NCBI RefSeq assembly: GCF_910596095.1
Contig: NC_056538.1
Coordinates: 20,384,501-20,448,500, forward strand
Direction of reading: 5' to 3'
Length of the DNA: 64,000 bases
Source of the DNA: Thunnus maccoyii
Lineage: Eukaryota; Chordata; Actinopteri; Scombriformes; Scombridae
Part shown: positions 28,804-58,031 of the stretch, in pieces
How positions within the stretch are numbered: the stretch's first letter is position 1
How the letters are laid out: each line of letters opens with the position of its first letter
Translations under genes and position numbers: made by a program
The notes under the pieces: generated by a model
Told to the model about the DNA's origin: nothing
The model's input: the letters and a program-made list of their open reading frames with translations, nothing else
Database searches by the model: none

Positions 28804-30944
28804 ACCTTACTAAACCTTGGCTGCATCTCACTCTCCCTTTCTTTCTCCTCTTGTCTCTCTACTGTAAACTGTCAGATTAGGCAAGAAGCCAAAAATAATC
28901 TCTAATGTGCCAAATATTTTTTTTTAACTGTAACATGCAAACAATAGCTGTTTCTTGTCACCTTTGATACAAACGTTGACACTACACGTGGTGCAAGCAG
29001 TTTTAGAAGTGAACTGTGACCATCTACAACACACAGAAGCCTTTAGATGTCAAGAAATATAACATTCAATCCAACATACCGTATCAGAGAAGCTACAGAT
29101 TCAGATAGGAACTGTCACATGCTAATATTGTCTCAAGACAATTTTTTAATCTTGCTCTGGAGTGACACTAACACAGACGACTCCCACACATAACCCACCA
29201 AATTAGTGTAAGTTGCCTTTCAGTCCCTGCAACTGAAAGATCACTGTGCTGGTGAATGGGAAGGCGCTAGGCATGTTGCCAAGAGCATGCGACACTCACA
29301 CACACACACACACACATATGGCGCCCTGGCGGCTAAGGTCAGTGCTTTCTCAAGGCAAAATAAGGGAGTGTGGAAAGGCTTGGGAAACTGCAGAAGAATG
29401 TGCATTTCTGCGTACACTGTTGAACTGACCTGAAGACAATTACTCAGGGCACAGTTTAAGTCCACAACAGGAGAGGCCCTGTGTGCACTGGGCACAGATG
29501 ATGATGGTGCGAGTCTAAATTAAGCTTTTCAGGCCTAATTCACACATCATTCCACCGTACCCTCATGAATCCAGCCTTTGAGGGGAGAAGGTGGTCTTTA
29601 CTGGCATGTAATTACTCTGCAAACCTACAGTATTTGAAAGGCTGAGAGCGGCCTTTGCTGCAAAACATACAGTATCGGCATTCACTAATTGGCAAACTGA
29701 GACAATTATGAACATGTGAGTAACGATTGGCACTCATTAGATGTTTTTTAAACACCAATTACTCACATGAAGTCCTCATAAAAGGACACTTTCAACAATT
29801 TTTGTAAAAAGTAAAAACCGCATTCTTGTGATAAGAGATTAGAGTAACACTGTAATGTTCTGTATGTCAGATAAATATGTTTAACACAAACTCCCACACC
29901 CAGAAACCACAGGGCAGACAACAGCAGAGACTCATTTCGTCAGTGGAGTTTCTCCAGAATATACAGACTAATCACAAACATACAAAAAAAAATGCCAAAA
30001 TGTAATTTGTTTTCCGGTTTCTGGATTACTGCTGGGGGAAAAAAAAGCTATTAAGCCTCAAAACAGAGACAGATGCAGGAACTACACTTAAAATTGCAAG
30101 GCACGATGGTTCAAGACTAGCCAGTACATGATGTAATCTAATTGAGAATTTAGAAATTAATCCTTCTGGTTTATTGCACTGAAGCACAAAGGCCAAATAA
30201 AGATAAAAATGGTTTGCTCAGACATGTAATGTCTACTTCAAAGCACAAATTGAATGTAATTCCACCTGGTTTTCTGTATAAGCTGGAGGCAAATGATCAT
30301 TTATAAGAGGTGAATTCATGCTTTGAACAAAATAGCCAATATAAGTCCCAATAAAACCAGGACTGATCGGATTTTTATTTTTTTTTCTGTTCCCAAAGAA
30401 TTCAATTTTCTGCAAAGCATCAATTTTGTGGAGTATGTGGGTGGCCTTCAGTTTGAAGCGTGCACTATGTAACCTCAGCATCCTGAGACTGCATCTGGCC
30501 AAGGACCTTTGTTGCATCCTGATCTCTCCCACACGAAATCCTGTTTGGAGCTTCACTGCTGACAGAACTATTGATAATCTGTTTTGTCCAGTAGTGCTGT
30601 GTTTCAAACAAAACCTAAACCACAAGTGATTTCACCAAATATTCCTTTCCATGGCTGAAGATGTAGGAAACGGTTTGATACCTGTATATTCACAGATAAT
30701 CACTGAATTTTCAAGGTTTCAGCAAAATCTATGACACCAGGGACGAGACTGAAGGAGTACTGGGCAAAAAGAATCAGGTGACTCATAAACCAGTTAACTA
30801 AGAGACTTTATTCCATCAATTCTTGTACCCACTTTCTCCTATTTAAAGCCACAGGGAGGCTGTAGCCTTTGTTCACTCCCACCGCAACATAAACACACAA
30901 AACACACCAAACAAGTGAGGCAGAGCAATGTATCAAATAAGAGT

Positions 30945-30950
30945 TTTAAT
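30945..30950 (-). terminator. snrpa: snrpa poly(A) signal ATTAAA
   Basis: ATTAAA on the minus strand lies 22 nt past the PIE. A GT-rich tract at about 30917-30889 follows, which fits a downstream cleavage-stimulation element. This puts the mRNA 3' end near 30925 and the 3' UTR at about 0.5 kb. Confidence 0.8.
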
Positions 30951-30962
30951 TATAAAAAGAAA

Positions 30963-31012
30963 AAAAGCTCCAGGTACAATGTCTGGTGGACCAGACTCTG
31001 GGTGCAATGCTT
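30963..31012 (-). promoter_or_regulatory. snrpa: U1A polyadenylation inhibition element (PIE) in the snrpa 3' UTR
   Basis: Read on the minus strand this segment folds as three stacked stems. The outer stem is AAAGC/GCTTT, the middle stem CCAG/CTGG and the inner stem GTCTGG/CCAGAC, closed by a TCCA loop. The two asymmetric internal loops are ATTGCAC (31007-31001) and ATTGTAC (30979-30973), each opposite a single A. In vertebrates two U1A molecules bind these two boxes in their own 3' UTR and block poly(A) polymerase. The element sits 22 nt upstream of an ATTAAA hexamer. Box sequences, fold and position all match the known element. Confidence 0.93.
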
Positions 31013-31432
31013 TAGTAAAAACAGTAAAACAGAAATATATATATATAAAAAAAAAACAACACATCAAGTTGCTTGTGGATTTGAGTGTGAACCCAGAAGA
31101 AGAAACTGGTACTTTTGTGAAATTTATACCCGTATGATGCAGATTTCCTAACTTCAATATTCAGCTCTTAATTTATGTACAGTTCTGTCAGTGCAGCACG
31201 ATAAAACAGCAACTTGATGCAAAGAACGTATACTTACATGTAAATTCAAAGTATACTTACATGTAATCCTGGAAGAAGGGAAAAAAAGAACACTGATGCT
31301 GTACTGTTCAACTGTTCATTTCTAAAACGTTTTCCTCAGTTTGGGTCACTGCTGTACATTTAAAAAAAGACCACCTGTGTGTTTGTGTGTGTGTGTGTGC
31401 GTGTGAGAAGACGACTGGTCGTGGGAGAGGTG

Positions 31433-33098
<1,666 letters not shown>

Positions 33099-53000: not shown

Positions 53001-55352
53001 GAAAGAAAAAACCCAGCACCTCTTGTAGCAGAGTCAACGTCTAGATCGCTCTGATAGCAGTTGTTTAGTCTACTGTATATGTACAATAACAGCTGAAGTG
53101 GCAACTGTAATGTGATGACAAGTTATTCAAACATGCACCCAGACAGTGTTTAAATGATCCTACGGCTGAGCTCAGCAAAGCCATGGGAGTTAAGGGACAG
53201 AGGCGTGGGGGTTAGAGATAAGAGCCAGTTTCCTCTTCTTTGGTTCAAATTTGTTAGAGTCATGTTCCATTTATCAGGGTGGTGCAAACCCGAGTGTGAG
53301 ACTTAATTTGAATGACACATTAGATAAATGGTTTCAAATGAAAAACTTTTCAATTTCAATATTCAAATTTTTTTTTTAGTTCTTTAAAACAAACAAATTC
53401 ACCGAAACCAAATGAGGTACGCACATTGTTCTGACTCACTGATGGCTTCTTTTATTTAATTTGCACACCAGCACTTCAGGGATCATTCTATTGTGATCAG
53501 TGTGTCATAGTTTGAACAGCTGTTAGAGTACATCTGACCCCTGACATGCACTTTAAACCTGTGACTTGACCGACATCAATGTGACGAACGTGACATCTGG
53601 AAGTGTATATTCCACTGACAGTGACTGATGTGACGGTCATTGTGCAATGTGTGCTTGTGCACATCGTCTGGGTAAAGGTCCAAAGAAAAAATGGAAATAC
53701 ATGTGTGTCTTCATTCTCCTCTGAGCCATCTGATGAACAAAGTGCCTGTGATTAAATCTCTTACAGGATATAGGCTTGTTGACCTGTATGTGCCCTGTGT
53801 GCACATGTAGTGTGTGCATGGATTTGTACATGTTAACATCCATTATATCACCTTGGTTTTCTCTAACTGCTTCTTATATAGCTGTTTAGTATTTTTTTGC
53901 ATCTGACAACAAGGTTTGTTCAGTTGATGAATGGCCCTTAAGCACATGTCTGCCTTGGTTTACCGTCAATTTCCCAATATTAACATTTGCTATTTTTTTC
54001 TATCCAAATCAGTAAGACTAGTTTATGTTTTTTGTCTAGGAGTACAGCTGTGGGTGTTTTATTAGTCAATAAATATTAAAGAAACACTTAGAATCAACAG
54101 CACTCATGTGATTGTTAATAACTGGACTGCACAGAGCATTTTAAGAAATTGAATTGTTGAGGAAAAAGTAGAGACTCACCCCTGAACCGTCGTCCGGGCT
54201 GCACAGAGACCGGGCCGGAGACAGACTGGACTCGATGTCGCTCCCGGTAAAGTCGTCCTCGGACTCCTCGAAGGAAGAGGCGGAGGACAAGCCGATGGAG
54301 GACGAGTTTGACAGCTTCCTCGGTGATCGCATCAGCGCAGGGGACCCTCCGCAGCCGCTGTCCGAGCAGGGAGACTCGTCATCGGGGTGAGGATCCAAAC
54401 ACGACCCGGCGCTGAGCTCCGTTGGCACGGTCAGCAGTGTCGGTGTCCCCGTAGAGCGGCTGGGACTGGGGTCCCTGGTTATGATGAGTTTCGGTATGGT
54501 GCCCGGGAAACTTTGGCCTCTTGGAAGACTCTGGGGCGCCTGATCAGAGTCATCTCTTGCCTCAGTTTCATCCGGACAACAGTTGTTTTGGTCACCGGTC
54601 GCTTTAGGCGGACATGAAACGGTAGTACAGTCGCTTTTTGTCATTTCACCAACAGCGTGATCGTCCGGTATCGACAGTCCAGTATCCAGAGGTTTATCCG
54701 AGAGCAAGCTAGACAAAGTCCGCTCCGTGTCCGGGTCAGAGGTGAGCAGCGGGGCTGAACTCTGACTAGTCCCCGTTAATTCCCCAACTTCAGACACAAT
54801 CCGACCCTGGTTGTTTCCCCCCAGTGGCTGATCTTCCATGGCCCTCGTCGGGGGATCCGAGGCATTGTCCTCTCGGCCGGGTTTCGGCTCCTCACAGCCC
54901 GCAGCAGCGCTGACTTCACCGGTCCGTGTTTCCAAACCTGACGCATCGGACGAGCCAACCGTCGCCTCTCGGTTCACAGCGTCAGCATCGGTACTAACAT
55001 GCAGGCCGGACGGTGTCTCAAAACAACCCGGGGCTCCTCGGTGCTCCCCAACCGCCGACACAACCTCGTCCCGCGGCAACTTTCCTACTCTATGATCGCG
55101 GTGCGTTGCTGGATCTCCGGCTCCGTTTCCGCAACCTAAATCCCTTTCTGTTTGGCTAGAGTCTCGCTTTCTCCTACCAAGACAAGACAACACTTTGTTT
55201 TTCATCGGATTCCTGTTTAACTGGTCACCATGTCGCTTTTCTCTGCTCCTAAATCTGCGGATCCGGAGCCGCTGGGCTGTCTCTCCTGCTTTCCATTTCG
55301 CTGTGCCTGGAGTGGAGGTGCTGTGCGATAGATCTGAGCGAGTTTGGCCCAT
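42290..55352 (-). CDS. itpkc: Inositol-trisphosphate 3-kinase C
   Basis: The enzyme phosphorylates Ins(1,4,5)P3 to Ins(1,3,4,5)P4, ending calcium-release signalling. Seven coding exons (minus strand) are 55352-54180, 44413-44314, 44215-44002, 43576-43372, 42998-42897, 42704-42633 and 42499-42290, giving 691 residues with consistent phases. Exon 1 encodes a long divergent N terminus ending in a Ser/Asp-rich stretch ([13 protein letters not shown]) typical of the family. Residues 392-412 ([20 protein letters not shown]) match the calmodulin-binding segment. The kinase domain follows with [18 protein letters not shown] (486-494, Asp490 and Lys492), [43 protein letters not shown] (Asp644) and [20 protein letters not shown] and adjacency to actmap and snrpa favour the C paralogue over A or B. 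The ATG at 55352 is chosen because an acceptor lies at 55383-55384, which excludes the ATG at 55424. Confidence 0.95.
45669..46013. mobile_element. Long imperfect palindrome, MITE-like
   Basis: Left blocks GTAACACTTAATAA, AAGTCCTCCTATTTA and TATAACACACTATAAT recur inverted on the right (TAGTGTGTTATA near 45941 and AAATAGAAGGACTTAAAGTG near 45993). The arms are about 110-120 nt. It is non-coding and lies in itpkc intron 1. Confidence 0.65.
50027..50060. repeat. (TG)n microsatellite
   Basis: TG run with TATG interruptions in itpkc intron 1. Confidence 0.88.
51990..52347. mobile_element. hAT-like element with perfect 8-bp target duplication
   Basis: AATGTTTA occurs at 51982-51989 and 52348-52355. 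The ends are CAGCTGCAACAATTAG and, inverted, GGGCAGCAACTAACGATT. It is 358 nt, non-coding, and lies in itpkc intron 1. Confidence 0.8.
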
Positions 55353-55382
55353 CCCGCATGCCGTAGTAGTAGTAGTAGGCAA

Positions 55383-58031
55383 CTGAAACAGACACACCAG
55401 ACATGAGAAGGGACACACCCTCAATGGTTGATTTTGAAGATAGTTGAAACCACTTAAACCATGACTCCTACAATGTACAGTAAGCCATTAGTCACAAAAT
55501 CCATTTATTAAGCCTGGGAAATCTTAAATTGACACACCCCTTAACTGCATCTGAGGATTGGTCATATCTGTCAGAGCAAACACATTATGAGTAATGTAAT
55601 GAACACATTAACTGCATGACCAATAGATAATACACTGTGTCACACCTTTCCTTTTACTCCATTTATCAAGACTGATATTGTAATCATTAACAGCACACAT
55701 AAAGCTCCTGGATATTGTCAACAGTCCCAGTAAACATTCGCCGTCATTAATCACAGTGTTTTGGTTCAACGGTGGTAATTAATCTGTGATTTAGCAGGTC
55801 AGATTTACAGATAGTATGTCCTGGGGCAGGCCAAAGGACAGAGAAACTAACAGCACAACAACTTGCACTTAGAGTATATTTATAGGAGAATTTTGCAGAA
55901 TTAGTGATTTAACTTCTGATATTAAAAGAGATCATTGCAGAGAAATTCAAAGTTTCAGACTGATTTTCATCAGTGTAACACTGCCCTCCTGTGTCTGGAC
56001 ACTGTCCTTCACCAGTTGGTTTGTTTCATCACATCACAACATCATTTCAACACATTACTTTAGATCTAAATGGCTGTCTGTAAAAGGTCTTGTTTCATTA
56101 AAAATGCCAAAAAGTCAACTCGAAAAGCAATAGCTGTATAGGAAAAGAAAGTTTAAATGTGTCCTGGGTAAAAAATAGAAGAATATGTTGACTAAAATAT
56201 ATTTACAACACTGTTTTCAAGCAAGCCTTCACAATAAGCAAGGGGTGGCTGCAACCAATGATTGCTTTCATTATCAATTAGAGCTGCAACAAGTAATCAA
56301 TAAATCAAGTAGTCAATCTAAAGAAAATTAAATCGACAACTATTTTGATAATCTATTAATCTTTTCAGTCCTTTTTCAAGCAAAAATGCCAAATGTTCTT
56401 TGGTTCCAGATTCTCAAATGTGACAGTAAATTGAGTATCTTAAGATTTTGGACTGCTAGTCTGGCAAAACAAGTACATTGAAGACATCACTGTGGACGCT
56501 CTGACAAATTGTGAATGCCATTTTTTAAACTATTTTTTAACAATTAACAAAAAAAATCAGCAGATTAATTAATAATTAAAACATTAGCTAGTTTCAGCCC
56601 TGTAATCAATTAATGTCTTGATTATTTTTCAATGACTTACTGTGTCTAGAGACAGAAAATAGTAAAAATATCACTTGAGCCCAAAGTGATGTCATCAAAT
56701 TGCTCATTCGGTTAGACCAAAATATTCAAACAAAAACTGAATGTAAAATGATATAAAAGAAAGAGAAAATAAGAAAATCCCCACATTTTTAGAAGCTAGA
56801 ACCAGCTAAATAAATTACTTGAACGATACATCAATGATCAAAATAGTCGAATAATTTTCAATCAATCATTTTAATCAATTAATCATCAAATTATTGTTTT
56901 TGTGCTATGTGTCCAGCACATACAAGCATGTTAGAAAGCACAGCAAACACACAGTATTTAGGCTTTAGCTTCTGGGTTTGGTCCTTATTGGAGGTAAATA
57001 AGATAAGACTGCTAGGTAAATAAGAAATCCTTAAAGAATTCAGTAATTGTAGTCTGCAGGCAGCTATCTTACATGTTGATACTAAAAATAATGGCACCTT
57101 TCCTCCTATGAAAGACACATTTAATCATTTTAACAGACATATGGCATCCTAGAAGAATCCAGAGCGTTTTACATGAGACGCAGTGAGCTGCTGAGTGTTT
57201 TCACTGTCATGTACTGTGTGACAACGCCACAGTCACCCTGCTGGCTGGAAGGAATGCTCACAGAAAGGAAATGAGACAGGAAGGACAACAATGGAAAGAA
57301 CAGCTCATCGTGTACAGTACACACACAGACTCTCGAATACACATACACTTTGGCGTAATCAAATATAATTAAAAAATAACCATACATCATGACTCATGCT
57401 GGGCTGAATGACTGAGAGACATACAGTCAACAATGAGACACACACTTTACGGAAAATCATTTCATGGCAAACTGATATAAAACACTAAAAATGAGTTAGA
57501 GCAGTAAATGAAAGTCATATCCGTCAATCAGTCGCAAACAGTTTATCAATTATCTGCTTGTTGAGATAGGAAAACACACTATGTGGCCACAGTGGATAAT
57601 ACTCGAAACACTTTTACTTTCGAATAAAATATGCATTTTTTTTAAAGAAAATAATACCCACACTACAATGTAAGTTAGTTTGGAAATTAATCACTGAGAT
57701 GTGAAGGTTTGAAGTTCACATTTGAAGACAGAGTTTGCTGTTTTACCTAATGTTGCTTGATGAAGTTCAGGGTGGCATTTTTGACTTAAATATGTACATT
57801 TAGTGAAACTTTGATCCTAGATTAGACACAAAACAACGATATATAGTCTATAAAAGTAATCAGGACTGGCTTAAAGATTAAAAGACTAGTTTCTGATAAA
57901 AGCGACTGAATGTGTCCTTCATCAACTTTAACTTTGACGACAGCTTTTTGACAACCAAACTGATTAATAATGGAACTAACACACAACAAAACATCCCAAT
58001 AAACATAAGACAATGATTTGTCAAAACCTAC
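55383..58031 (-). other. itpkc: Presumed itpkc 5' UTR intron
   Basis: AT-rich DNA with a nested pair of hAT-like copies (about 56247-56890, inner copy 56281-56604). No coding exon is visible on either strand. Confidence 0.45.
56247..56890. mobile_element. hAT-like element split by insertion of a second copy
   Basis: The outer copy starts GGCTGCAACCAATGATT at 56247 and resumes at 56605. The inner copy is 56281-56604, beginning GAGCTGCAAC and ending CAGCCCTGTA. ATCAATTA flanks the inner copy at 56273-56280 and 56605-56612. Confidence 0.65.

Follow-up and report, generated by a model that had tools for sequence, protein, structure and literature searches.

The window, by which we mean the whole 64,000-nucleotide stretch of Thunnus maccoyii DNA analyzed here, carries on its minus strand the gene snrpa, which encodes U1A. 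Its 3′ UTR contains a U1A polyadenylation inhibition element (PIE) recognized by the Rfam covariance model RF00460 (U1A_PIE), two poly(A)-signal-like hexamers and, upstream of the PIE, a tandem pair of sites complementary to U1 snRNA.

The snrpa gene, its product and its paralogue

The 281-amino acid coding region of snrpa (31433..33098, minus strand) is distributed over six coding exons at 33098-33026, 32934-32762, 32608-32435, 32057-31881, 31770-31682 and 31592-31433; all introns are GT-AG and the reading frame is intact. Residues 1-281 of the predicted protein align with residues 1-282 of the U1A chain in PDB 3pgw (E 6e-152), a chain that we take to be human. Pfam reports two RRM_1 stretches, and the alignment with the 3pgw chain indicates that RRM1 and the basic segment behind it are both kept. 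The 12 residues following RRM1 in the fish protein align to ERDRKREKRKPK of the 3pgw chain; presumably it is this segment of U1A that contacts poly(A) polymerase. Elsewhere in the window, at E 0.001, Pfam matches nothing in an open frame of 448 codons on the minus strand (54141-55487).

A genome search with the snrpa protein returned 10 matching pieces, six at snrpa itself and four on contig C2 with 52-74% identity, which we read as the paralogue snrpb2. Within the 5 kb around and beyond the last exon of this paralogue, the gene's strand contains neither an ATTGYAC box nor a U1 site with at least 10 matches, and RF00460, run at E up to 1, did not match these 5 kb. Also downstream of the paralogue, at positions 2889-2994 of locus L015, both strands show below-threshold matches to microRNA precursors (MIR7504, 46.8 bits vs 83), probably reflecting an inverted repeat.

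A PIE upstream of the snrpa poly(A) signal

The PIE occupies 30964..31013 on the minus strand, i.e., the sense strand of the snrpa 3′ UTR, just upstream of the hexamer ATTAAA. Read from 31013 to 30964, it consists of AAAGC, ATTGCAC, CCAG, A, GTCTGG, TCCA, CCAGAC, ATTGTAC, CTGG, A and GCTTT, with ATTGCAC as U1A box 1 (31002..31008, minus) and ATTGTAC as U1A box 2 (30974..30980, minus). In a search of the window, RF00460 matched 31017-30942 with 72.2 bits (E 9.3e-15) at a gathering cut-off of 50 bits, and the alignment spans positions 1-74 of the 74 in the model. Judged by covariance model, strand and gene, the minus-strand element at 31013-30964 is a U1A PIE. It was also the sole RF00460 match reported from the source assembly (782,140,779 bases in 54 contigs), in a search that scored 59 of 109,518 first-look candidates.

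The preliminary description of this DNA had proposed a PIE of the known vertebrate architecture, with two U1A boxes each facing one A and with the stems AAAGC/GCUUU, CCAG/CUGG and GUCUGG/CCAGAC. Both boxes and every stem are present in the minus-strand sequence, and the full-length match to RF00460 bears out the architecture. The element itself thus stood, whereas its position, given as 31012-30963, was off by one base. Its AT-rich surroundings were likewise as claimed: GC content is 0.50 within the PIE, 0.29 in the 100 nt preceding it and 0.363 over the entire 3′ UTR, taken as 31432-30945.

Individual boxes carry little information. Single boxes were found 23 times against a mean of 23.96 in shuffled sequence, i.e., at chance level, so the evidence for the PIE lies in the entire arrangement of boxes and stems. 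A further pair of ATTGCAC boxes at 36089-36083 and 36061-36055 (minus strand) has the same 28-nt spacing as the PIE boxes; as Rfam gives nothing for it even at E 5, we rejected it as a second element and judged it a chance occurrence. Five other Rfam matches between 30000 and 42000 all fell under their respective gathering scores. A PIE pattern had 0 matches in a viral contig collection and 0 in a prokaryotic one, the outcome to be expected there.

Compared with the RF00460 consensus, the fish element shares the two boxes, each lying in an internal loop of 7 nt that faces a single A, the same three stems, the same host gene and an ATTAAA close behind. It differs in box order, C then U in the fish and U then C in the consensus. 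By our reading of the alignment, both sides of the outer stem's second pair are altered, C-G having become A-U in a compensatory exchange, and the inner stem has gained one pair through an insertion on each side. The hexamer lies 13 nt from the stem, 4 nt further than the 9 nt of the consensus.

Thermodynamic folding does not favor the known architecture: the textbook two-loop fold is not the energy minimum (-11.3 vs -13.5 kcal/mol) and has an ensemble probability of 0.003. In the minimum-energy fold, part of box 2 is paired and replaces the CCAG/CUGG stem. When the larger segment 31432-30925 is folded, the minimum preserves the form of the inner hairpin region alone, and the outer PIE stem takes other partners. 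The same procedure applied to the consensus letters of RF00460 likewise fails to return the textbook structure (-11.0 vs -16.8 kcal/mol), which points to a weakness of the method where internal loops are large. A 66-nt segment around the PIE has a folding z of -1.77, with 9 of 200 shuffles equally stable. Energy-based folding by itself would not have proved the PIE.

The proximal poly(A) signal ATTAAA (30945..30950, minus) begins 13 nt after the PIE stem, a gap that had been put at 22 nt, and a GT-rich tract follows it at about 30913-30881 (minus), where one had been described. The stop codon ends at 31433, 419 nt from the PIE, in agreement with the earlier figure of about 420. A poly(A)-signal-like AATAAA (30807..30812, minus) lies 138 nt beyond the proximal hexamer; it might serve as an alternative site that yields an mRNA less sensitive to the PIE.

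Tandem U1-complementary sites

Upstream of the PIE, the word CATGTAAGTAT occurs twice on the minus strand, as site 1 (31253..31263) and site 2 (31230..31240), each matching the complement of the U1 snRNA 5′ end at 10 of 11 positions. Folding predicts that one copy anneals to the other as a 12-bp hairpin (31234..31266, minus) in which 31266-31255 pairs with 31245-31234 around a 9-nt loop. Just ahead of them lies an acceptor-like pyrimidine tract that ends in CAG (31269..31291, minus) and has 19 pyrimidines in 20 positions. On sequence grounds, the tandem sites look able to bind U1 snRNP.

Dinucleotide shuffles of the 488-nt 3′ UTR contained at least one 10/11 site in 84 of 20,000 cases and two in 0 of 20,000, at a match threshold that was chosen after the sites had been seen. 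Among 12,704 overlapping 488-nt stretches of the real window, taken on both strands, 147 held at least one such site and 45 held two. There are four 10/11 sites in the whole window, and only the pair in the snrpa 3′ UTR falls within 488 nt. Since both copies represent one duplicated word, the second site is not independent evidence, and neither is the hairpin, because the duplicated word is itself palindromic. The duplication was absent from the output of Tandem Repeats Finder at score 30. We dropped genome-wide uniqueness as an argument: the tandem pattern matched the genome once, with 11 matches for the backwards control in its looser form and 0 in its strictest, and a related pattern matched once against 9 for its control. 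Given the controls with 11 and 9 matches, uniqueness says little.

The sites are mismatched to U1 at the -1 position, and their predicted duplex energy is -7.4 kcal/mol, compared with -14.0 kcal/mol for a perfect site. This value lies within the range of snrpa's own donors, -3.1 to -10.5 kcal/mol, not all of which were cut to the same register. An 81-nt segment containing the hairpin folds at -12.1 kcal/mol (z -2.02; 3 of 200 shuffles as good), and the minimum fold of the entire 3′ UTR retains the hairpin. In the predicted structure, 2 nt of site 1 and 4 nt of site 2 are left unpaired.

Human U1A is reportedly subject to a bipartite U1 site, attributed to Guan in 2007, in which a U1-complementary site is partly hidden by base pairing. 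The fish tandem sites resemble this arrangement in that a U1-complementary site shares a 3′ UTR with the PIE and is predicted to be paired; they differ in that the two fish copies are predicted to pair with each other. It was the human arrangement that prompted us to look for U1 sites in the fish 3′ UTR.

The AG at 31269 is the pyrimidine-richest of 169 AGs scored between 33500 and 30800, with 19 of 20 pyrimidines; the next, with 17, is a real acceptor. Twelve YAGs in the window are preceded by at least 18 pyrimidines in 20, and only the one at 31269 has a U1 site (at least 9 matches) within 60 nt. With laxer tracts, a YAG is followed by a U1 site in 2 of 33 cases at 17 pyrimidines and in 4 of 84 at 16, the one at 31269 included.

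U1 snRNA genes of the same genome

A genome search for U1 snRNA gave 42 matches in two clusters, 8 on contig C6 (30.36-30.51 Mb) and 34 on contig C8 (3.67-3.72 Mb). The C8 copies form one run of about 51 kb, in which several are spaced 739 bases apart. The U1 loop ATTGCACTC, which contains the sequence of box 1, was seen in four of the six U1 loci that were fetched (L004-L007, plus strand), and the U1 5′ end ATACTTACCTG was found in the same four. In the two minus-strand loci (L002 and L003) neither word turned up in a search that covered plus-strand text only.

Discussion

The U1A PIE of the human SNRPA 3′ UTR is the subject of Boelens 1993, Gunderson 1994 and Varani 2000, as cited in the available text of PMC9977717. 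In mammals, according to the available portions of PMC9977717 and PMC6884704, a pair of free U1A molecules on the PIE inhibits poly(A) polymerase, and the mRNA drops. The element described here is very probably the vertebrate U1A PIE in a fish snrpa 3′ UTR, through which U1A would limit polyadenylation of its own mRNA, and U1A feedback most likely operates in this fish. U1A binding, polymerase inhibition and homeostasis in the fish are steps that we infer from the mammalian system. Free U1A in excess of U1 snRNA would bind the PIE as two molecules, occupying both boxes. Their basic segments behind RRM1, now paired, would touch poly(A) polymerase and keep it from adding a tail at the ATTAAA site, less snrpa mRNA would accumulate, and U1A would return to its set level. 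With less force, one may suppose that the tandem upstream U1 sites attract U1 snRNP and strengthen the repression, and that their pairing with each other restricts how accessible they are. The distal AATAAA could let some mRNA form away from the PIE, which would count against control by this element.

That the PIE is a chance resemblance has some superficial appeal, as single boxes occur at the frequency expected by chance and a second box pair with 28-nt spacing exists at 36089-36055. This second pair is, however, without any Rfam match up to E 5, while the real element, at E 9.3e-15, is located in the very gene that would be predicted to carry it; this already refutes coincidence, to which we assign a practically negligible probability. 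A non-functional relic would be easier to reconcile with an energy model that disfavors the textbook fold and with a distal AATAAA that offers an escape. Yet neither box and no stem pair is broken despite the AT-rich surroundings, one pair shows a compensatory change, and we consider decay of the element very unlikely. The tandem U1 sites could turn the 3′ UTR into a composite repressor, a fish counterpart of the human bipartite U1 site, in which the PIE is joined by self-pairing U1 snRNP sites that bring in U1-70K as an additional block to poly(A) polymerase. The available text of PMC3826338 summarizes inhibition of the polymerase via U1-70K when U1 snRNP sits on a 5′-splice-site-like sequence near a poly(A) site. 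From the accessible part of PMC3694450, the U1A stem is conserved in all mammals, and a foamy-virus donor structure with four unpaired U1-binding nucleotides is called “strikingly similar” to it; site 2 of the predicted 12-bp fish hairpin also leaves four such nucleotides free. Both fish sites are complementary at 10 of 11 positions to the U1 5′ end present in four of the six fetched loci, and no shuffle of the 3′ UTR in 20,000 contained two. Against this stand the origin of both sites in one duplicated palindromic word, which deprives the second copy and the hairpin of independent weight, the -1 mismatch with a duplex energy about half that of a perfect site, the backwards controls (11, 9 and 0 matches) that leave tandem uniqueness with little to say, and a site threshold set after the fact. 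A second repressor loop based on the U1 sites is plausible in this fish, and we hold the composite reading tentatively, at slightly less than even chances.

The same stretch invites a splicing interpretation: an alternative or decoy exon of 8 or 31 nt within the 3′ UTR would have its splice sites in the pyrimidine-tract AG and the U1 words, which would then serve splicing and not poly(A) control. The AG at 31269, with two donor-like words directly after it, is the sole case with a nearby U1 site among the 12 YAGs of at least 18/20 pyrimidines, but other cases appear once laxer tracts are admitted. For such an exon to be used, the terminal exon would moreover have to supply another donor before it and an acceptor after it, and the best downstream AG listed (31010, 15/20 pyrimidines) falls in the PIE stem. 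We find an exon of this kind unlikely. In a bolder variant, the tract AG, bound by U2AF, and the self-pairing U1 sites would form a decoy exon-definition unit that loads splicing factors able to inhibit poly(A) polymerase, as U1A does on the PIE. This idea derives from the available part of PMC6884704, which names U2AF65 among the proteins with poly(A)-polymerase-inhibitory motifs; we rate it as rather improbable. If it were true, snrpa would respond to the levels of free U1A and of free U1 snRNP together, with the hairpin fixing how much U1 snRNP is needed.

Returning to the preferred reading of a PIE under U1A feedback, the Thunnus element is an ordinary member of its family, since a curated Rfam family and a killifish annotation already exist. 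The available text of PMC5584509, the one fish PIE annotation among the literature matches listed, counts one U1A PIE in the genome of the teleost Nothobranchius furzeri, which makes the two fish alike in this respect; for the killifish, that text gives the count. Among the literature matches listed, which covered few subscription papers, none dealt with a U1 site in fish snrpa, and the tandem U1 hairpin is the only part of the 3′ UTR finding that could be new. What the locus and its genome offer together is a complete U1A feedback set in one fish, comprising the element, the poly(A) signal, the protein and a matching U1 loop. This is consistent with a U1A feedback loop that is old in bony vertebrates. 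If the tandem U1 sites were also found in other fish, they would indicate how a second U1A repressor evolved far from mammals.
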